Source of the DNA: a virus
DNA length: 22,069 bases
IMG/VR virus record: IMGVR_UViG_3300030060_003110
Span: 20,813 to 42,881 of that record
Direction: 5' to 3' (one strand)
In this document: piece by piece, positions 6,817 to 22,052 of the stretch
How positions within the stretch are numbered: position 1 is the stretch's first letter
Layout: each line of letters opens with the position of its first letter
Notes under the pieces: generated by a model
Databases searched by the model: none
What the model was told of the DNA's origin: nothing
Seen by the model: only the letters and a program-made list of their open reading frames with translations
Position numbers and translations under genes: made by a program

Positions 6817-7476
6817 TCACATGAGCCATTTTGCCCAAGCAGCACCCTTTTGAATTGCTGAACCTAAACCTAAACCGCTTTGCGGTGGTTCATAACTCAT
6901 TTGTCCTTGAGCATCAATCCAGTAAGGACGGCCATATCCATCTGTTCCATTTGGAGGAATAGGATAACCTGAACCATTATTCATAGCACCCTGCATTTGA
7001 GCATATTGTTGCTGATTACCAGTTAATCCTGCAATTGCTCCTGCGGCAGTAGGTTGGGTTATTTGTTGTATTCCGCTACCACCAAAACCTTGAGATTCAA
7101 GATATTGTTGCTTTGCCATCTTTCTTTGCATAATAACTTCGGTATTGATAGCCGATTGCAATAATTTTTGAATGTCTAAGTCAATATTTTCTTGAGTAAT
7201 TCTTTCATATTCTCTCATAGAGTCAGGATTCACAGAAATAATGTTTCCGTTTTGACTAAATGCTAATTTAGCCAGCATTTGAGAAACTACTCTTTCAACA
7301 ACATCTTCCATTAACTTTTCAAGAGCAACTAAAAATTGTTCTCCGTGATATTGAAAAAACTCTTCAACATGATTTTCTTGTAAAGATAATAAATTATTTA
7401 CTGTCTTAAATTGTGCGTCTCCTTGTGCTTGAACTGCGCCTAAAACAGTTCCATTACTTGTTCCTAAAATTCCCAT
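6817..7476 (-). CDS. Gln/Gly-rich protein of the GTPase cassette, unknown
   Basis: The 219-aa protein has two parts. The N-terminal ~125 residues are helical (LLSLQENHVEEFFQYHGEQF, then VALEKLMEDVVERVVSQMLAK). The C-terminal ~95 residues are low-complexity Gln/Gly/Ala/Pro with Tyr (GYPIPPNGTDGYGRPYWID), ending in a short hydrophobic helix AAWAKWLM. The start at 7476 follows AAGGAGGC, overlapping the stop of the zinc protein. The low-complexity half could be a flexible tether or fibre-like region, and the last helix might contact membrane. No family is recognised. Confidence 0.55.
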   Translation of the reverse strand: MGILGTSNGTVLGAVQAQGDAQFKTVNNLLSLQENHVEEFFQYHGEQFLVALEKLMEDVVERVVSQMLAKLAFSQNGNIISVNPDSMREYERITQENIDLDIQKLLQSAINTEVIMQRKMAKQQYLESQGFGGSGIQQITQPTAAGAIAGLTGNQQQYAQMQGAMNNGSGYPIPPNGTDGYGRPYWIDAQGQMSYEPPQSGLGLGSAIQKGAAWAKWLM

Positions 7477-7478
7477 GT

Positions 7479-8159
7479 TTATGCCTCCTTAACTAATTCT
7501 TCTTTTCCTTCTTCTTGCGGTAATTCATTTAGTGCTTGAACATTATGCTTAAGCATTAAATGATTGAGTCTTTCTGTCATAATATTTATTTCTGTAATCA
7601 AACGAATGACTTCATCCGTTGCCGTCTTTGAATCTCCTAATGCGGGTGGGGTTATAAACCATCCTGCTGATGTAAGGCTCATAACATCTTCTTTGCTTAA
7701 AGTTTTAATTGGCCCACCTTTAAGAATTTTAGGCATTCGTGGTTTAAACGAACTAAATTCTAAACCATGCTTATCTGCAAGTATTTGTTGTTGTAGCATT
7801 TCTAATTGAACATAAATAGAAGCGTGTTTAGGACAATAAGTTCCCATTAGTGGTCGTCCTTTTGTTACACCATCTAAAGGCATTGGTGGGCGCATATAAT
7901 CACCTTGTTCCCAAATATGATGAAAACCACAAACAACACACCTATCTTTAAGATTAAACTTTTTTCCATACTTAATGCCTAAGAACTTCTTTGGTTCTGC
8001 TTTTAAAACCAATTTAAGTTCTTTTAGTTGAGCCTTTGGTTTAAATGAAATAAACTTGTATTCTTGCACAACACCGCTTGCTCTTGCCTGTTGAAGTGGC
8101 GAAAGCGTCGGATTAAATTGTTGTGGTGCAGTTTGTCCTATAATGTTGTTTTGATACAT
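7479..8159 (-). CDS. Zinc-binding (CxxC...CxxH) protein next to the GTPase
   Basis: This 226-aa protein has one likely zinc site: C74-x2-C77 with H80/H81 close by (DRCVVCGFHHIWEQGD), and C109-x2-H112 (TYCPKH). Residues 33-70 are Lys-rich. The C-terminal ~60 residues form a helix with a Leu repeat (ITEINIMTERLNHLMLKHN). It starts five bases after the GTPase stop, so the two are almost surely co-translated. It could be a structural zinc protein of the virion or an adaptor for the GTPase. No enzyme signature is visible and no family is recognised. Confidence 0.6.
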   Translation of the reverse strand: MYQNNIIGQTAPQQFNPTLSPLQQARASGVVQEYKFISFKPKAQLKELKLVLKAEPKKFLGIKYGKKFNLKDRCVVCGFHHIWEQGDYMRPPMPLDGVTKGRPLMGTYCPKHASIYVQLEMLQQQILADKHGLEFSSFKPRMPKILKGGPIKTLSKEDVMSLTSAGWFITPPALGDSKTATDEVIRLITEINIMTERLNHLMLKHNVQALNELPQEEGKEELVKEA

Positions 8160-8164
8160 AATAA

Positions 8165-8833
8165 TCAGTAATCCTTTATCATTGTGGTAATTCCTCTATA
8201 AACCATTTCGGGGTCAGATTTTGCAGATACAATATATTTGAAACATGGTATTCCTTTATCGTTTAACTTTCTCATACCGTATTTGAATGGTTCAAAAATC
8301 TCATGTTTATCTATTTCTTGGCCTTCTGCTAATGGATATTTTTTACCCCAAATATCATATTTATTTGCCCAAATACCTACTGCCATTGGATAATCAGATT
8401 CTCTTTTCTTTTTTCCATTTGACCATCTTTTTGAAATTATTGAATCAACTAAAAATTTCCATGCTAATTGGTGGTCTAAATTAATTTCATTATCTAAATG
8501 TCGGTGGTCAATCATAAAAACAACGTATTTTACTCTTCGGTTTTGCATATCTTTTTCCCATTCTTTCCAGTAAATTGCTTCTCCACCAATATCTGCACTT
8601 CTTACTGTATGGGAATTACCATCTATTTTAACATTTTTTCTCGTTGCTCTATGTCGCCCAACAGTTCTATCGTTAATTTGCGGAACTTCTCCTCTTGTTC
8701 TTAATTGATGACTTAATGTTGTTTTACCAACCATTGTTGCTCCATAGACTCCAAAATTAATAGCGTGAACTTTTTTGTAAAATCCTATAATTGCTTCACC
8801 GACAAGAATAGCAAATCCTGTCATTAATGACAT
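8165..8833 (-). CDS. Membrane-linked Arf-like small GTPase
   Basis: All core GTPase motifs are visible, numbered from the ATG at 8833. The P-loop is GATMVGKT (31-38). A switch-I Thr candidate is T57 in DRTVGRH. The Walker B/switch II is ADIGGE (80-85), the Arf/Sar/G-alpha form of DxxG, with Glu where Arf has catalytic Gln. G4 is ANKYD (156-160) and G5 is SAK (203-205). Residues 2-20 (SLMTGFAILVGEAIIGFYK) form a hydrophobic or amphipathic helix before the first strand, as in Arf proteins or the anchored SR-beta. The frame reaches a GTG at 8845, but the ATG at 8833 follows GGTGGGGG and overlaps the previous stop as TAATG. Such a switch inside capsid genes is unusual. A role in membrane attachment, remodelling or assembly is inference. 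Confidence 0.8.
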   Translation of the reverse strand: MSLMTGFAILVGEAIIGFYKKVHAINFGVYGATMVGKTTLSHQLRTRGEVPQINDRTVGRHRATRKNVKIDGNSHTVRSADIGGEAIYWKEWEKDMQNRRVKYVVFMIDHRHLDNEINLDHQLAWKFLVDSIISKRWSNGKKKRESDYPMAVGIWANKYDIWGKKYPLAEGQEIDKHEIFEPFKYGMRKLNDKGIPCFKYIVSAKSDPEMVYRGITTMIKDY

Positions 8834-9051
8834 TAATGCCCCCACCCATTGAGAAGGTTATCAAATAACCAACCCATAATATTAATATCAAAAACACCTA
8901 AAATATTTCCGATTAGAAAACCTGAAAGACAGATACAAGAACCCCAAAAAAGCATTCGCATCTTCAAAAAGAAAATGTCTGCTGAATGCGCTCTTTGTTG
9001 ATTATAAGCATAATCTGAATCAGAAAAGCCCATTATGTCGCCAAAGACCAT
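8833..9051 (-). CDS. 72-aa single-span membrane protein
   Basis: The N terminus is polar (MVFGDIMGFSDSDYAYNQQ) and is followed by a positive stretch and a hydrophobic span at about residues 33-54 (MLFWGSCICLSGFLIGNILG). The tail, DINIMGWLFDNLLNGWGH, is partly amphipathic and Trp-bearing. The ATG at 9051 has GGCGGTGAAAG upstream. The stop overlaps the GTPase ATG (TAATG), so production of the two is coupled one to one. It could be a membrane partner of the GTPase, a holin-like protein or an integral virion protein. No family is recognised. Confidence 0.6.
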   Translation of the reverse strand: MVFGDIMGFSDSDYAYNQQRAHSADIFFLKMRMLFWGSCICLSGFLIGNILGVFDINIMGWLFDNLLNGWGH

Positions 9052-9062
9052 TCTTTCACCGC

Positions 9063-9446
9063 CTATTGTAGTGCGGCTAAGAACTCATTACCAACGCTAT
9101 TCTCTTCTTCTTGTTGAACAGGTTGATAAAAGGAAGTGTTGTATTGTTTTGCACTTTCACGCATCTTTTGTCGTTGTTGTTCATCTCTAGCCTTTCTTTC
9201 CCAGTATGCCGCAATTTTACGGTCTAAGAGCCAAAGTTCAATTCTATCATTGAGTGATAAATCAAAGATTGCTTTCATAACCATAATTGCACCAATTGTT
9301 CCTAAACCAAATAAAACAGAATGGGCTAATGGGCCATATGGGAAATTCATTCCAAATGCCGCATATGCCCAAACATTTGTTCCGCTTAATGCACCGACAA
9401 ATAGAATTGTCATAATTAGACGAGTATCTTGACTTAATGCTGCCAT
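9063..9446 (-). CDS. 127-aa protein with two membrane spans and a charged tail
   Basis: Two hydrophobic segments, about residues 10-32 (LIMTILFVGALSGTNVWAY) and 40-64 (AHSVLFGLGTIGAIMVMKA), form a hairpin. They are followed by a long charged helix (RKIAAYWERKARDEQQRQKM) and a polar tail. The topology, with two spans and a charged C terminus, is compatible with a holin, a membrane anchor or a scaffold for the GTPase. The ATG at 9446 follows GAGGTGTTTAA, which contains the stop of the preceding gene. It is the first of three consecutive genes encoding membrane-associated products. The function is not recognisable from sequence. Confidence 0.6.
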   Translation of the reverse strand: MAALSQDTRLIMTILFVGALSGTNVWAYAAFGMNFPYGPLAHSVLFGLGTIGAIMVMKAIFDLSLNDRIELWLLDRKIAAYWERKARDEQQRQKMRESAKQYNTSFYQPVQQEEENSVGNEFLAALQ

Positions 9447-11878: not shown

Positions 11879-12550
11879 TCAAAGGTTTCCTCCAACCATC
11901 TTATGAATGTCAGCCCAATCCATTTCGGCTAATTCATCCATTGTAGGGAGATTGATAGTGGCTTCTTCTTGAGCCTTTAGAATTGTTTCCTTCTCAGCCG
12001 TCAAAGACTTTCGGAGGGAAGCAAATTCATTCTTAAGAGAAGCAATTTCGCTTTGTGCATCATATTGAGCCTTAGCGAGAACACTCTCTCTTGAAGAGGT
12101 TTCAGCCTTGAACCTGTGTTCAAACTGCTTTTGAAGGTTATCGTAAGCCAACTTTTCAAGTTGTTCTTGACGGAAAGCCTCGTAAGCCTTCTCAATGTTT
12201 CCAACAGACAAATCAAGAGTTTCTAACTCATTGTTGTCGAATGCCTTAACAACTGGTAAATCAGATGCTCTCGGCTTTCCGTTGTCAATAACGATTCTAT
12301 CAGCAGGTTCGCCAATTTCGACACCTGCTCCATCAACGGTAGAAACGTAGGCTTTGGCTTCATCATCCATGTATTCACCCATGCCTTTTTCATCCATCAT
12401 CTTTTCATCGTCCATGTTTTCTTCATCGTCCATAGCCATGCCCTTTTCTTCATCCTTCATGTCCATGCTTTCTTCTTCTTCTTTTCTTAGCATATTGACT
12501 TCTTCCATAAGAGCGTCAAGTTCTGCCAATGCTTTTTCTATTTTGGTCAT
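11879..12550 (-). CDS. Internal in-frame start producing separate scaffold protein
   Basis: Inside the protease gene, AGGTGA lies five bases before an in-frame ATG (codon 185, 12550-12548), exactly at the junction between the protease domain and the scaffold helix. The product (MTKIEKALAELDALMEE and onward) would be a free scaffold of 223 residues. Lambda and related phages use the same design, with the scaffold (Nu3) translated from within the protease gene (C) so that scaffold greatly outnumbers protease. The spacing and strength equal those of the best starts in this window. Confidence 0.6.
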   Translation of the reverse strand: MTKIEKALAELDALMEEVNMLRKEEEESMDMKDEEKGMAMDDEENMDDEKMMDEKGMGEYMDDEAKAYVSTVDGAGVEIGEPADRIVIDNGKPRASDLPVVKAFDNNELETLDLSVGNIEKAYEAFRQEQLEKLAYDNLQKQFEHRFKAETSSRESVLAKAQYDAQSEIASLKNEFASLRKSLTAEKETILKAQEEATINLPTMDELAEMDWADIHKMVGGNL

Positions 12551-13102
12551 TTTGTTCACCTTTTTTGTTTTTTCTTGCTTTAAAATATCAAATCTTGCTT
12601 CTGGATTAATTCCTTTTTCACAAATTGTTACTTCATGTAATTCTAATTTACTTATTTCATTGTATTGTCCTAATTCTTGGTGGGTTTTCTTTACTTTTTC
12701 TAAAGCCTGTCCTCCAATACTAAAACTCCTCAATGAACCTTTTCTAATGCCTCTATTAATTTCTTTGGCTTTTTCTATATCGTCTCTTAATTTAATAACT
12801 ACGAAGAATCCTACATCATCAACTTCTGTTTTAAACAATCTCCCTGATTTATCTCGGTATGATTCTACTACTTCTCCGACTTGAACATTAGAATGATTAG
12901 TCATTACATTTCTAAATTTGGGGTTCTCCATATATTTGTTTACCGCTTCTTTGAGGGCTTTGAGTGTGATTAAATCATTTTGCTTATCAACGATTTCAAT
13001 GCTTGCATATCCTCCAATCATTAAATCGTCTTGGCTCTTGAGAATCCTGAAATCCGAAGTGTTGTTTCGCATCACCGCAGAAGTCATTCTTCTCAATCCC
13101 AA
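11879..13102 (-). CDS. Prohead protease fused to scaffold (XkdF-like)
   Basis: Residues 28-170 form a herpes-type (S78-like) prohead protease. The start is GGYASIEIVDKQNDLI, the His motif is VMTNHSNVQVGEV (H70), the Ser motif is SLRSFSIGG (S128 the likely nucleophile) and the third residue region is LELHEVTI (H156/E157). Residues 185-407 are scaffold-like. They comprise a helix, a Met/Asp/Glu-rich linker (about 213-247), a long coiled coil (303-380) and the C-terminal tag MDWADIHKMVGGNL. The protease would remove scaffold during head maturation. The TTG at 13102 opens the frame, but the ATG at 13087 (MTSAV) is a good alternative. A TATA box lies 16-23 bases upstream of 13102. Confidence 0.85.
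   Translation of the reverse strand: MGLRRMTSAVMRNNTSDFRILKSQDDLMIGGYASIEIVDKQNDLITLKALKEAVNKYMENPKFRNVMTNHSNVQVGEVVESYRDKSGRLFKTEVDDVGFFVVIKLRDDIEKAKEINRGIRKGSLRSFSIGGQALEKVKKTHQELGQYNEISKLELHEVTICEKGINPEARFDILKQEKTKKVNKMTKIEKALAELDALMEEVNMLRKEEEESMDMKDEEKGMAMDDEENMDDEKMMDEKGMGEYMDDEAKAYVSTVDGAGVEIGEPADRIVIDNGKPRASDLPVVKAFDNNELETLDLSVGNIEKAYEAFRQEQLEKLAYDNLQKQFEHRFKAETSSRESVLAKAQYDAQSEIASLKNEFASLRKSLTAEKETILKAQEEATINLPTMDELAEMDWADIHKMVGGNL
12556..12561 (-). promoter_or_regulatory. Internal ribosome binding site for the scaffold
   Basis: The sequence AGGTGA precedes ACAAA and ATG within the protease reading frame. It is complementary to the CACCT of the 16S rRNA 3' end. The surrounding codons are Lys/Val/Asn-rich linker, so the motif is not forced by a conserved domain. 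Similar strings do occur by chance elsewhere in Glu-Gly-Glu coding stretches, but seldom with a well-spaced in-frame ATG. Confidence 0.55.
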
Positions 13103-13132: not shown

Positions 13133-15679
13133 CTATTCTTCAGTAGGAAGGGGTAATTTGTTATACCTATCTTCATAAATATTCCATTTTCCTTCATCTC
13201 CCTCTTTATCAGCAGGAGTTTGTTTGAATCCAGTCCATGCAAGCCACATTTTTTCTCCATCCACATCTAAGACTCTATAATGCATTTTAGTTTCAAACTT
13301 GTTTCCTTCTAAGAAATATTCATGGTAGCCGTCTCTTTGAATACCTAATCTTATTTTACCAGAATCGACAACCTTTCCTTTAGTTACAGTTTTTGCTACT
13401 TCTGCTGGATATTTACCAGCAGCCCCGAATAAATCAAACATCTCTTCTTCATTCTCAATATCAATTGTCCAAAACATATTTTCTGTCTTTAATTTAATTG
13501 CTAATGTTAAGTTATCATCTTCTCTAGCATATAATTTAAATTCACCTTCTCTTAATTCAGGAGGTGTTTTATATTCACCTTCAACGAGTTTAATATCTTC
13601 TTTCATGATTTCTTCTTCCTGCATAATTTTATCATCATCAGCAGAAATTTTACCATTCTTTTCACTAATGCCATCTCTAAGAATTATCCACTTCTTTAAC
13701 TTCTTTACATCAGATTCAAGAACATCTTCGTATAAATCTTTATGTTCTTTCACTAAAAAGTTATGCAGTTCTTTAGGAGTTTTATCTCCCCTTTCTTTTA
13801 AGTGCTGAAAAGAAGCCACAGTCAAATCGCTTTGCTTAGACTTCATAATATCAATCGCTTGTTGTTTCCACATATCTAAATCCATTGTAGCATTCTTAGA
13901 CATTAAATTATCTTCTTCATATCCATAAATAGTAAAGCCATCCAAATCATATTTGATAATTACATTGGCTTCTCCATGAATATGGTCTGTTATTTTAACA
14001 CCTTTTGTAAATGCCTCAACATCATAATTAAGAGACTTCTTAGTATCTTGAGATAATAATTCTAAAGTTACGAGTTTATCAGGATATTCTACTTCAGGAA
14101 TCTCAATAGGCTTTGCTGAGAATAAACTAAAACCATCTCCTTTCTTTTTAACTTCATCAACCTTTACTCGAATAATTTCTCCAACATCAACTGAAATTTT
14201 AGTATTCAATGCTTTGCCTACATTTAAATAATGTCTCTTATCTATTTCAACAGCACCAGTCATTTCTTCATCAACTGGCCCAACACCAACAGTATAAGAA
14301 TAAAGATTACTTTTTGTCTTTTTCTTTTCTAAAACAATAACATCTAAATCTACAAACTTCTTTAATTTAATCCACTTAGGATTTTTCTTTGTTCCGATGT
14401 AATATGTTGAAGTAGAATCTTTGATAACTACTCCTTCAGATGTAGGAATTTCCATCATTTCTTCGGCATACTTTTCAATATCCTTTAAGTTGTCTGCTTG
14501 ACGAGTATCTTTCTTTGATGGATAAGCAATCGCTTCTCCTGATTTAGCAGAATAATTGTTAAATAAAATTGTCATTCTATTTTCTAATTCTTCATCTGCT
14601 AATGTTTGTGCTTCATGTCGAATAATATCAAAAACATGGCATTTTAATTTAGCCTCTTTATATTTATCTTTAAATACATGAGCGATAGTATCGGCTCTAT
14701 GAAGAGGTTCATCCCCATCAAAGAGAACCAATTCGCCATCAAAAATACAATCACCGTATTCTTTCTTTTTTAATTCCTCAGTCTGTTCTTTACATTTATC
14801 AGAAATGTCCTTACCATTATAAGAATAAATAGTAACTTTATCGTCAATTTTATGTAATTGCACTCTCATGCCATCATACTTTTCTTGAACATACCAATTA
14901 CCACTAAAGCCCTTTAATTCTTCAATATCCTTAACTTCAAAAATTCTATACATTGGTTTATTAGGAATAATAAATTGAGAGATGGATTTTTTCTCATCAT
15001 TAGGAACAGACTTCTCTACTCCCTCAATATCTTTCAATTCTTCCCAATCCTTCTCTTCATTCTTAGAAAAGAAAATTAGTTCCAACATATCCATAGCAGC
15101 CTTTACTTTGGATTCGACCTTCTTTGAGTCTTTTCCATCCCCATAATGCTCAATAATATAGAGGGCTATGTCATCCGATTCTATGTCAAGTCCTCTAAGA
15201 CCCTCCGTAATTGTGTCGGGTTGCATCCCTTTAACGCTGTAAATGTCAGCAGATAGGGCTTTATTGTCATCCCTTAGAGCATAATGCACAAATTTAACCA
15301 TGCTTTCTGGATTATCCAGTAATTCTTCAAGGACATTATCCTTGAACATAGAAGCGAATGGGTCGGCAACAATAGAAGATGAATAGCGAAGCAATTTTAT
15401 TTTTTCATACAGTTCCTTCGCTTGTCTTGAAGTAGGGTCTTTTGTGTCCTTATCTTCTAAATCCTTCTCATCAATGAAGTTTCTCATTTCCTTTCCTGCG
15501 GCATCTGATTCTTCATATGATTCAGTAATCATATCAACCGCTTTACGCCAACGACCCGAATATTCTGTTGGGTCGTGAATAGCAGATAAATAGGCTACTC
15601 TTGTCTTTTCAAATAGACGAAGAATTTCTTGGGAAGGTTGCTTATCCTTCTCAATAGAAGCCAATTTCATACGAATCAT
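13133..15679 (-). CDS. ATP-dependent DNA ligase with long terminal extensions
   Basis: The 848-aa enzyme carries the nucleotidyltransferase motifs in order: I EKYDGMR (K267 the adenylated Lys), III IFDGELV (312-318), IIIa HVFDII (348-353), IV EGVVIK (415-420) and V WIKLKK (436-441). An OB-fold region follows to about 530. It would seal nicks using ATP. Residues 1-250 are helical and are not an evident ligase DNA-binding domain. Residues about 712-820 faintly resemble the LigD 3'-phosphoesterase fold (GKVVDSGKIRLGI, then HEYFLEGNKF, MWLAWTGFK) but lack its catalytic His pair, so that activity is unlikely. The ATG at 15679 overlaps the previous stop (ATGA). Placement between portal and protease genes is unusual for a replication enzyme. 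Confidence 0.85.
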   Translation of the reverse strand: MIRMKLASIEKDKQPSQEILRLFEKTRVAYLSAIHDPTEYSGRWRKAVDMITESYEESDAAGKEMRNFIDEKDLEDKDTKDPTSRQAKELYEKIKLLRYSSSIVADPFASMFKDNVLEELLDNPESMVKFVHYALRDDNKALSADIYSVKGMQPDTITEGLRGLDIESDDIALYIIEHYGDGKDSKKVESKVKAAMDMLELIFFSKNEEKDWEELKDIEGVEKSVPNDEKKSISQFIIPNKPMYRIFEVKDIEELKGFSGNWYVQEKYDGMRVQLHKIDDKVTIYSYNGKDISDKCKEQTEELKKKEYGDCIFDGELVLFDGDEPLHRADTIAHVFKDKYKEAKLKCHVFDIIRHEAQTLADEELENRMTILFNNYSAKSGEAIAYPSKKDTRQADNLKDIEKYAEEMMEIPTSEGVVIKDSTSTYYIGTKKNPKWIKLKKFVDLDVIVLEKKKTKSNLYSYTVGVGPVDEEMTGAVEIDKRHYLNVGKALNTKISVDVGEIIRVKVDEVKKKGDGFSLFSAKPIEIPEVEYPDKLVTLELLSQDTKKSLNYDVEAFTKGVKITDHIHGEANVIIKYDLDGFTIYGYEEDNLMSKNATMDLDMWKQQAIDIMKSKQSDLTVASFQHLKERGDKTPKELHNFLVKEHKDLYEDVLESDVKKLKKWIILRDGISEKNGKISADDDKIMQEEEIMKEDIKLVEGEYKTPPELREGEFKLYAREDDNLTLAIKLKTENMFWTIDIENEEEMFDLFGAAGKYPAEVAKTVTKGKVVDSGKIRLGIQRDGYHEYFLEGNKFETKMHYRVLDVDGEKMWLAWTGFKQTPADKEGDEGKWNIYEDRYNKLPLPTEE

Positions 15680-18948: not shown

Positions 18949-20589
18949 TTAACCAACTCTTCTTTCTGTTCTTTTATCGTTGTTTTGATTTCCAGCGTCT
19001 AACGGCAATCCCGACATTCGCTTATCGGGTGCTACGTTCATCGAGGGTTTATTTCTTGTGGTCGCAGGGTTCTCCTGTGGCTTGCTTCCGCCCTGTAAAG
19101 CCTGTTCTTGCATTTGTCCCATTTGTGAAGCATCAATGTTTGTTCCTGCATAGGGGTCAGTTTCAGTTTTTCCTTCTTCTCCCTGTCCTTCAGGCGGTGC
19201 TTCGGGTTCAGGCTTCTTAAAGGTAAATTGACCATCTTCATCCATATCAACCTCAAAGCCTAAATTCTTTGTTGATGCAGCAATATTGACTTCAATCTCA
19301 CGCTTACGAAGAACAGCAATTTCATCCTCTTCTTCGCTTGGAGGTAGTTTTAAATTCCAATCTGTAATACCAAATTGTTTTACAAGGAATGGGAAAACAT
19401 AATTATTATAGACAGTCTGTGCTTTTTGAACGGCTCTATTTGTAACAAGAATTTGCATACCTTCATTGTTTAATCCACCGCTTGTAGTATTATCAGCCAT
19501 GAATACCTTGCTTACACCATAAAATGCTGAGATTCTATCTCTCAAATCATCTTTAACAGACACATAATCCATCTCTTTTAGACTGTCCATGAATTTAATC
19601 CATTCAACCGCACCTTTCCCTCCTTCTGCTTCAATTCCCATAACAGGAATAAAGTGAGGGTCGGCCTCCATCTTTTCTTTTACTGAACGCCAAAAGGAAC
19701 GCATTGAATCCATATTTCTGGTTTGAACTGCAAGTAATCCTCTTGGCATTCTACTCTTAGTATATGATTGATTAACATAGTTTTCCATAGCAATAAGAGT
19801 CATAATATTGTTAAATAAAGTAATAACTGGAGACATACCATAAAGACGAGAAGGACTGTATTTACTAAAATGTAGCACTTCTCCTTTCAAAAAGTGCTGG
19901 TCATCTCCATTTACTCTATTTACATAGTGAATAGGGAATAAATGACTATTACAAATCTCACACTTTTCATGTGGGTCTTTGTGAATAACACCACGATGAT
20001 TTACACAAGTAAAACCTTTTGTTCCTCTTTGTCCATTCTCATCGCTATAAATAAACATAGTAACGGGGTCGCCACGATAAACTTCTTTAATACGATGCAT
20101 TCTAATTTTACCATTACCATCAATAAAGTATTCTTTAACAAGAACAATGTAAGCATCATCCATAATGTTTAAATCATCTTCAAGTTCCTGTAATACATCA
20201 ATAAATAACTGCTCGGATTTATTAACATACCCTTCAATAAACTTTTCAGCATATTCTAATTGCTTAACATCAGGAATTTTAAGGTCAGCACTTTCACAAC
20301 GAGAACATTCTTGAACTGGTCTTTTATGTTCTTTACCACAGTTATTACATCGTGCTTCATATGCTTTTTCCCAAACATATCCTCTTCTAAATACTTCTTG
20401 TTTTAATTGAGTAATACAAGTCCTTGCAATAACTGATTGATTAACGATATTGTAGATAATTGGGCCAGTCATCATGTGATTGGTTTCTCTTTCTTGAATA
20501 CCCATGTTGTAGACTTTTCTATCAGCAGGTTTGGGAGTTTGTCTCCTAAACAAGTTAGTGATACTAAATCTTCTTTTTTCTTCAACCAT
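18949..20589 (-). CDS. Portal protein with two zinc knuckles
   Basis: The 546-aa protein carries portal-like patterns: YGMSPVITLFNNIMTLIAM (the stem/helix region), LKEMDYVSVKDDLRDRIS, and YGVSKVFMADNTTSGGLNN followed by a helix. The latter is typical of portal crown/wing regions. Two zinc sites are visible: C81-x2-C84 with C95-x2-C98, and C195-x2-H198 with C210-x2-C213. Most portals have none. The C-terminal ~80 residues are disordered (Gln/Gly/Pro). It forms the dodecameric DNA channel at one vertex and binds the terminase, whose gene is not in the window. The ATG at 20589 follows GGGGGTCTGATTC. Confidence 0.85.
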   Translation of the reverse strand: MVEEKRRFSITNLFRRQTPKPADRKVYNMGIQERETNHMMTGPIIYNIVNQSVIARTCITQLKQEVFRRGYVWEKAYEARCNNCGKEHKRPVQECSRCESADLKIPDVKQLEYAEKFIEGYVNKSEQLFIDVLQELEDDLNIMDDAYIVLVKEYFIDGNGKIRMHRIKEVYRGDPVTMFIYSDENGQRGTKGFTCVNHRGVIHKDPHEKCEICNSHLFPIHYVNRVNGDDQHFLKGEVLHFSKYSPSRLYGMSPVITLFNNIMTLIAMENYVNQSYTKSRMPRGLLAVQTRNMDSMRSFWRSVKEKMEADPHFIPVMGIEAEGGKGAVEWIKFMDSLKEMDYVSVKDDLRDRISAFYGVSKVFMADNTTSGGLNNEGMQILVTNRAVQKAQTVYNNYVFPFLVKQFGITDWNLKLPPSEEEDEIAVLRKREIEVNIAASTKNLGFEVDMDEDGQFTFKKPEPEAPPEGQGEEGKTETDPYAGTNIDASQMGQMQEQALQGGSKPQENPATTRNKPSMNVAPDKRMSGLPLDAGNQNNDKRTERRVG

Positions 20590-20882: not shown

Positions 20883-21013
20883 TTTGATTCACCCATTCCT
20901 TTTGGTCTGTCGTGTGCAATCCAACATAGTTCGCAGAAACTAAATGGCATTTGTCCTTCAATATAACAAATACCACAATAAATAAAATTATGATTTCCTA
21001 ATTGTTTCAACAA
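20879..21013 (-). CDS. 44-aa zinc-ribbon protein
   Basis: A short frame starts at TTG 21013 (or 21010) and ends at TGA 20879. It encodes two Cys pairs, C13-x2-C16 (IYCGICYIEG) and C27-x2-C30 (SFCELCWIAH), the classic layout of a single zinc ribbon. AAGGTGGAA lies immediately upstream of the start, inside the end of the DUF6321-like gene. Its stop overlaps the next ATG (ATGA), so it sits correctly in the operon. It could bind nucleic acid or stabilise a complex. Confidence 0.65.
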   Translation of the reverse strand: MLKQLGNHNFIYCGICYIEGQMPFSFCELCWIAHDRPKGMGESK

Positions 21014-21297
21014 TTCCACCTTCTTCGGGCGGCTCTTGCTTTTTCACTATAAGTGCCATCAGCCCGCTTAAATCCCCTTGACCTTGCACAAAAAGATTTA
21101 CGCCTTTTTGCTGCTTTACCGCCAGGTTTTAATTTACTTGGCTTTTTAGTAACTGGACGCTTTAAATTAGCACCAGTTTCTCTTTTAAATTTAGCACGGC
21201 CTTTCGCACTTAATCCACCAGTCTTTGCGTGAATCTTTTTGTTGTAGCCTTTGAAGGGCTTCTTTTTCTTTTTAAGAATCTCCTGCCATTCTTCCAT
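21007..21297 (-). CDS. DUF6321-like basic protein
   Basis: This 96-aa, extremely Lys/Arg-rich protein carries a pattern I recognise from marine virus and giant-virus proteins assigned to DUF6321: TGGLSAKGRAKFKRETGANL, then GGKAAKRRKSFCARSRGFK and the ending ARAARRRWNC. Its function is unknown; the charge suggests binding of DNA or RNA. The N terminus is MEEWQEILKKKKK, another Trp..ILK start. It follows the winged-helix-like gene closely and ends just after the zinc-ribbon start. Confidence 0.75.
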   Translation of the reverse strand: MEEWQEILKKKKKPFKGYNKKIHAKTGGLSAKGRAKFKRETGANLKRPVTKKPSKLKPGGKAAKRRKSFCARSRGFKRADGTYSEKARAARRRWNC

Positions 21298-21301
21298 TAT
21301 A

Positions 21302-21739
21302 TCATGCTCCTTGCATATTTGTTCCAGTTTGTCTTATAGAAGGTAAAGATGAAACTCCTTGTGAACCTATTGCACTTTTTGCTCGCTCAAGGTCTTGTTG
21401 AGTAATAGGTCTATTATAGAATTTATAGGCTGTTTTAATTTCCTGTTTAAGTCTTTTTCCATACTGTTTTACGGCTTGATTATATGCAAATTTTACATTA
21501 TCATCTTGGAATTTAATGCCAAACTTTTCAATATCTTCTGGTTTATGAGTGTAAATATCTCCATCTTCATGCATAAAGATTTTACCTTCCTTTCTTAACT
21601 TAGATAGGGTTTGTTTGATTTCTGCTTCTTCACCAAATTGCTTTAGGTTTTTCATACCTAATGCTCCGCCTTCTTTCTCAATCTCACTAAGAATTTTTGA
21701 TTCTAAATCTGCCTTTAAAATTGTTTTCCAATCATTCAT
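21302..21739 (-). CDS. Winged-helix-like protein with N-terminal DWKTILK
   Basis: The 145-aa protein starts MNDWKTILKADLESKI. Residues about 12-66 look like a small winged helix: a helix (ILSEIEKEGGAL), a helix (EIKQTLSKLRKEGKI) and a two-strand wing (FMHEDGDIYTH). The rest is helical with a disordered end. It may bind DNA or a protein partner. A GTG at 21748 could extend the frame, but AGGTGA five bases before the ATG at 21739 fixes the start. The ATG overlaps the stop of the phosphatase gene (ATGAATGA). Confidence 0.6.
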   Translation of the reverse strand: MNDWKTILKADLESKILSEIEKEGGALGMKNLKQFGEEAEIKQTLSKLRKEGKIFMHEDGDIYTHKPEDIEKFGIKFQDDNVKFAYNQAVKQYGKRLKQEIKTAYKFYNRPITQQDLERAKSAIGSQGVSSLPSIRQTGTNMQGA

Positions 21740-22052
21740 ACTTTTCACCTATCATATAGCCTAATTTTTTTCCTGCTTCAATGTCGCTTGGATAATGACT
21801 TCCCATTTGTATTCTTGATAAAGAAATCTTGTCAGCCATTTCTTTGAGTTCTTTCTTTTTGTCTGGATATTTTTTTCCTAATACTTTTTCTAAACCATGA
21901 GCAAGCATTGAATGTCCACTTGGAAATGCAGGAGTATCGTCTGTTTTTGTTTTTGTTGTTCTTATTTTATCAGATATTTGATGAGGTCGTGGTCTTTGAT
22001 ATTTCATCTTAAGAGTTATGGCATAATAGTTAATATCTTTCATAAAATCCAT
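21732..22052 (-). CDS. PAP2-family phosphatase, probably partial at the window edge
   Basis: All three PAP2 signature motifs are present in order: K15-x6-R22P23 (KMKYQRPRP), P44-S-G-H47 and S79-R-x5-H86-x3-D90 (SRIQMGSHYPSD). H47 and H86 would be the catalytic His residues. PAP2 enzymes remove phosphate from lipids such as phosphatidate or undecaprenyl diphosphate, or from small soluble substrates. From the ATG at 22052 it is only 106 aa, with no membrane spans. However, the frame is open to the window edge and no ribosome binding site precedes this ATG, so an N-terminal part may lie outside. Cellular location is therefore undecided. Confidence 0.75.
   Translation of the reverse strand: MDFMKDINYYAITLKMKYQRPRPHQISDKIRTTKTKTDDTPAFPSGHSMLAHGLEKVLGKKYPDKKKELKEMADKISLSRIQMGSHYPSDIEAGKKLGYMIGEKYE

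Follow-up and report, generated by a model that had tools for sequence, protein, structure and literature searches.

A small GTPase that drives vesicle formation has been described in Haloferax: ArvA (also referred to as OapA), an Arf-like protein annotated with PF01926 that carries an N-terminal amphipathic helix (Mills et al. 2024, PMC10927574). Its deletion abolishes RNA-associated vesicles, its overexpression raises vesicle number, and its operon partners are ArvB (OapB, PF09846) and the zinc-ribbon protein ArvC (OapC, PF09845) (PMC10927574). Here, we describe a small GTPase encoded by a tailed virus, whose universal presence beside membrane proteins suggests a virus-run switch at the host membrane, most likely one used in making or releasing particles.

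The window, that is, the whole stretch of DNA analysed (22,069 nucleotides), lies in a 42.9-kb IMG/VR record. Magroviruses are tailed viruses of abundant ocean archaea, and the window virus probably belongs to the Magrovirales, clade A (Apasviridae). We infer this from its MCP, which is of the HVTV-1 type and distantly related to that of the Druskaviridae, from the longer related records, which are mostly 92-97 kb in length (Magrovirales genomes are about 95 kb), and from the position of the following gene, which adjoins that of the prohead protease (11879-13102):

13133-15679, minus strand: ATP-dependent DNA ligase of 848 residues, in the head operon

The group A magrovirus contig_156409 likewise has its ligase beside the prohead protease (PMC7318539). 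The window ligase has long N- and C-terminal extensions. Among the other genes of the window, the portal protein (18949-20589, minus strand; phrog_18178, 1.6e-65) carries two zinc-ribbon-like insertions (CNNCGKE...CSRC and CVNH...CEIC), a DUF6321 protein (21007-21297, minus strand; Pfam 1.7e-14) is a small basic domain, and a small PAP2-superfamily protein of the lipid phosphatase/haloperoxidase type (21732-22052, minus strand; Pfam 3e-13) is a possible lipid-related enzyme. One 184,733-base IMG/VR contig holds two different GTPase loci about 92 kb apart (L014 and L113) and is probably two magrovirus genomes fused in assembly.

The GTPase gene and the parts of its product are as follows:

8165-8833, minus strand: small GTPase of 222 residues, from the ATG at 8833 to the stop codon at 8165
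8768-8830, minus strand: N-terminal hydrophobic/amphipathic helix, residues 2-22, placed by the AlphaFold2 helix and hydropathy
8720-8743, minus strand: G1 or P-loop, GATMVGKT, residues 31-38
8657-8668, minus strand: G2 or switch I, R56-T57-V-G, with R56 and T57 identical in 245/245 relatives
8579-8593, minus strand: G3 or switch II, DIGGE, residues 81-85 (preceded by A80), with Glu or Gln at position 85
8354-8365, minus strand: G4, NKYD, residues 157-160 (preceded by A156)
8219-8227, minus strand: G5, SAK, residues 203-205

The preliminary description of this DNA had placed the gene at these coordinates and had listed the P-loop, ADIGGE, ANKYD, SAK and a hydrophobic N-terminus, and every one of these motifs is found in the 222-residue protein; the strand had to be corrected, as the coding strand is the minus strand and the plus strand of 8165-8833 is riddled with stop codons and non-coding. 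A GTG at 8845 is a possible alternative start that would add four residues, but it is not conserved, and at the position equivalent to 8833 the relatives have ATG (165), TTG (43) or GTG (19). The ordered G1-G5 pattern is present in 68/69 diverse relatives and in 0/20,000 shuffles of the window protein, E13 is, like R56 and T57, identical in all 245 aligned relatives, and the median dN/dS of the GTPase is about 0.07 (with similar values for its neighbours tm127 and Zn226); the GTPase motifs are therefore not due to chance. W92, which follows the switch II DIGGE after six intervening residues, is also invariant.

By its sequence and its predicted fold, the window protein is a genuine Ras-superfamily small GTPase. 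Single-sequence profile matches stayed below the cut-off (Pfam MMR_HSR1 8.5e-4, NCBIfam small_GTP 2.6e-4), which is the one point in favour of a P-loop protein of another class, an ATPase or kinase merely resembling a GTPase. We regard such a protein as extremely improbable, as the guanine-specificity motifs NKxD and SAK are conserved and one relative (L190) exceeds the Pfam cut-offs for Ras (25.0 bits versus 21.6) and MMR_HSR1 (22.3 versus 21.9). Pfam matches among the 69 relatives were to MMR_HSR1 (66), SRPRB (57), Roc (54), Ras (38) and Arf (30). An AlphaFold2 model built from these 69 sequences (pLDDT 73.9, pTM 0.73), which replaced a 14-sequence model with a pLDDT of 54, has the Ras-like order of elements, with helix 2-22 leading directly into strand 1 (25-31). 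When this model was compared with the PDB using Foldseek, a search in which the best match could have been a non-GTPase P-loop family, the best matches were all small or Ras-like GTPases, chiefly of the Rab and Ras kinds, with E values down to 8e-9, a top probability of 1.00 and target TM scores of at most 0.73, so that the small-GTPase assignment of the preliminary description stands.

Against predicted viral structures, the 50 Foldseek matches listed were all from eukaryotic viruses, chiefly Ras/Rab proteins of giant viruses, with no prokaryotic-virus protein among them. Queries with the window and clade-B proteins gave no match in the plasmid and phage collections, and the search of cellular genome contigs gave a single match, on a viral contig binned with Maricaulis. 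This contig (L082, NZMJ01000024.1), filed under a Maricaulis MAG, carries a GTPase with 86% identity and is most likely a magrovirus contig mis-binned with Maricaulis. Within the collections searched, which comprised cellular contigs, plasmids and phages, the GTPase family is new and virus-only. We found no published mention of a magrovirus GTPase in the magrovirus papers and ICTV profiles consulted; it may have been annotated in Philosof 2017 or Prabhu 2025.

The GTPase likely, if not provenly, belongs on the Arf side of the Ras superfamily, judging from the DxGG[EQ]-x6-W signature, found in 69/69 relatives, and from the solved structures that best match a divergent clade-B member. This member matched 8oun (‘GTP-binding protein’; 0.0039) and then Arl8A/B and related proteins (Arl8 0.036), followed by a phosphate-loop protein and by 8oum, and the same DxGG-x6-W spacing is seen in the 8oun and Arl8 alignments. 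On the other hand, Pfam scores are near-equal across Ras, MMR_HSR1, Roc, SRPRB and Arf, and the family profile scored Ras (0.027) and Arl (0.034) in the PDB nearly alike; the term ‘Arf-like’, used from the outset, is partly supported, by the signature and the closest structures.

The residue at position 85, where Arf has Gln and the window protein has Glu, had been suggested to slow hydrolysis. This idea was dropped: Gln and Glu alternate among relatives (of 245 sequences, 168 carry Glu and 77 Gln), with at least three changes at this position along the family tree. Moreover, the Q61E exchange in Ras has been reported to raise intrinsic GTPase activity (PMC2987813), so that Glu85 need not mean a slow enzyme and gives no ground for regarding the window protein as an inactive or slowed mutant.

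Less clear-cut is the character of the N-terminal helix, which had been called a membrane helix. It is hydrophobic and conserved, with a best 19-residue hydropathy (KD19) of 1.62 in the window protein and the invariant Glu13 in its middle, but as a transmembrane segment it is borderline, and it is more polar in the sister clade B, where hydropathy is about 0.9-1.2 over 18 residues and positions 16, 17 and 20 are polar. Its hydrophobic moment is 0.26-0.38 (0.33-0.38 in clade B). From its sequence, the helix looks amphipathic as much as transmembrane and borderline for membrane insertion; given the polar residues and the moment in clade B, it is just as likely to be monotopic or to bind a partner as to span the membrane, and it could bind a protein rather than the membrane.

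The GTPase gene is the third of five closely spaced genes with the same direction, in the order tm127, tm72, GTPase, Zn226 and g219, which form a block inside the head operon, between a cement-type gene near the MCP gene and the gene preceding that of the adaptor. The other four block genes are:

9063-9446, minus strand: tm127, probably a membrane protein with two helices and a charged tail; first block gene
8833-9051, minus strand: tm72, a small one-helix membrane protein with a conserved RAHSAD motif
7479-8159, minus strand: Zn226, with an invariant zinc-finger-like CxxC...CxxH; starts 5 nt past the GTPase gene
6817-7476, minus strand: g219, a conserved helical protein with a Gly/Pro/Gln-rich C-terminal part; last block gene

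In the window, the block genes are separated by a few nucleotides or overlap by 1 nt, as do the tm72 stop codon and the GTPase start codon (TAATG). Among the 23 window proteins scanned, only three have transmembrane-like segments, and these are the products of the consecutive genes tm127, tm72 and GTPase. Profile searches with tm127, tm72, Zn226 and g219 gave no reliable match to a known family, and neither Zn226 nor g219 showed homology to ArvB, ArvC or coat proteins. Single profile matches of the block neighbours (to Csm6, GGDEF, galactokinase and gp6) were discarded as isolated and weak.

The location among head genes is as compatible with a role in assembly or in the virion as with one at the host membrane. 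If the role is in the virion, particles would carry the GTPase, the membrane proteins and g219, which would work during entry, for instance as a complex for ejection or membrane penetration. The genes flanking the block encode virion components and g219 resembles a conserved structural protein; its match to a virion-protein family is, however, weak (E 0.0075) and was not reproduced in relatives, and outside the cytosol a GTP switch would have little to do. A packaged complex appears decidedly improbable.

Across magroviruses, the block is strictly maintained. It is complete in 152/152 distinct magrovirus loci with sufficient flank, and, seen from the MCP side, the GTPase is present in 53/53 magrovirus loci with sufficient sequence. 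The search of related virus genomes thus bears out the location of the gene among head genes, which does not vary between the magrovirus loci examined. Among the widely shared head genes of the window, median identity peaks in the GTPase, at 84% (protease 78%, MCP 71%, Zn226 69%). These observations bear on two further explanations. In one, the GTPase would be a host-takeover switch that imitates a small GTPase of the host (ArvA-like or involved in polarity or division), or competes with it, and redirects vesicles, division or the cell surface; altered surface properties could, for example, bring about superinfection exclusion. Membranes in archaea are under small-GTPase control (PMC10927574), and the viral fold matches listed, giant-virus Ras/Rab proteins and other GTPases, are presumably host-directed. 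Genes of this kind are, however, usually patchy and fast-evolving, whereas the magrovirus GTPase is universal in its group and leads the head genes in conservation, and no close cellular source was found in the cellular contigs, plasmids and phages searched, so that we consider host takeover unlikely.

In the other explanation, the block would be a membrane-docked morphogenesis factor that tethers the portal or procapsid to the membrane, with GTP hydrolysis providing a checkpoint in assembly or a chaperone step and the GTPase being catalytic and absent from the virion. The fixed position of the block between the cement-type and adaptor genes in all 152 loci and the conservation of the GTPase, the strongest among the head genes, speak for such a factor. 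We know of no tailed virus that uses a Ras-type GTPase in head assembly, and relatives that lack the block and still make heads argue against it. At the MCP-side locus, the GTPase was not found in three haloarchaeal viruses (HVTV-1 and relatives). Five marine contigs (L288, L289 and L292-L294), first found with a methanogen-type virus query, also lack the block: their MCPs score about 475 bits against the magrovirus profile (HVTV-1 about 380), g111 is kept, as is the adaptor in loci that are long enough, g106a is weakly recognised, and the cement-type gene directly adjoins the gene before the adaptor, with zero block genes between. Profile searches of whole records found no GTPase in these contigs, the haloarchaeal viruses, L282-L284 or BK063666. 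The five contigs lie near the magroviruses and may represent another order among marine archaeal viruses. At the place of the block, two other loci (L116:14214-14546 and L282:10347-10637) encode a small HVTV1_124-type protein with an N-terminal hydrophobic stretch; this type of protein is found in haloarchaeal and related viruses and showed no similarity in sequence to tm127 or tm72.

Because the site is empty in relatives with homologous MCP and adaptor, the block has been gained or lost as a unit and heads can form in its absence. This is our main reason for preferring a function at the membrane or host envelope over one in capsid assembly itself, and a morphogenesis factor appears possible but rather unlikely.

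Beyond the fold class, linkage and conservation described above, we infer docking, partners, timing and purpose as follows. In the proposed model, which draws on Arf, Sar1 and ArvA, the GTPase would be a late, membrane-docked GTP switch that times a membrane step. In its GTP state, it would dock on the cytosolic face of the host membrane via the N-terminal helix together with tm127 and tm72, and would recruit Zn226, a possible regulator or effector, and g219. GTP hydrolysis would time the membrane step late in infection, the likeliest being an Arf/Sar1- and ArvA-like remodelling or opening of the membrane that serves egress, with membrane-bound head assembly as the main rival. We hold this model tentatively, as the leading one among those considered here. 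Its more elaborate form, a self-contained GTP-driven membrane machine in which the Arf/Sar1-like GTPase, a pair of membrane adaptors, a zinc-finger regulator and a coat-like protein would reshape the archaeal membrane in egress or membrane-bound assembly, is a doubtful possibility; the block members could also act separately and be joined merely by operon order.

A universal and strongly conserved GTPase in a block with membrane proteins is a concrete and testable candidate, and in practice the five genes make a near-perfect set of markers for magroviruses. An Arf-type switch in a prokaryotic virus would bear on the origin of GTPase-driven membrane work outside eukaryotes and, if the model is true, the GTP-driven membrane machine would be the first encoded by a tailed virus of prokaryotes.

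How, then, does this GTPase compare with known systems? SR-beta has a clear transmembrane helix and a DxPGH-type switch II; like SRPRB, the viral family has an N-terminal hydrophobic element followed by the GTPase, and the SRPRB matches in 57 of the 69 relatives are weak and below the cut-off. The Ras/Rab proteins of giant viruses (Edafosvirus, Pithovirus, Klosneuvirus and others) are likewise virus-encoded and of the Ras-superfamily fold, but they share 10-19% identity with the magrovirus protein, belong to viruses of eukaryotic hosts and, as far as is known, are not part of a capsid-operon block. With Arf, Arl and Sar1, the viral GTPase shares DxGG[Q/E]-x6-W, the T-[IV]-G switch I, the GKTT P-loop and an N-terminal helix directly before strand 1; unlike them, it has an invariant Glu in that helix, an invariant Arg before the switch I Thr and an insert before NKxD. 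The likeness to ArvA (HVO_3014) is drawn from its published description, and we do not claim membership of the same family. ArvB (PF09846) was found in 0/17 magrovirus records, with a positive Haloferax control, and ArvC (PF09845) was absent from the block, the 17 records giving one marginal match, in an unrelated 688-residue frame; a shared ArvB/ArvC operon was accordingly rejected, and the zinc motif of Zn226 is unassigned and differs from that of ArvC. In contrast to the ArvA operon, the viral block has two membrane proteins. Both ArvA and the magrovirus protein are single-domain small GTPases of Arf-like character and PF01926-type annotation; in both, an N-terminal helix precedes strand 1, an operon partner carries a zinc motif and the setting is archaeal, and, by analogy, the viral protein may work like ArvA.
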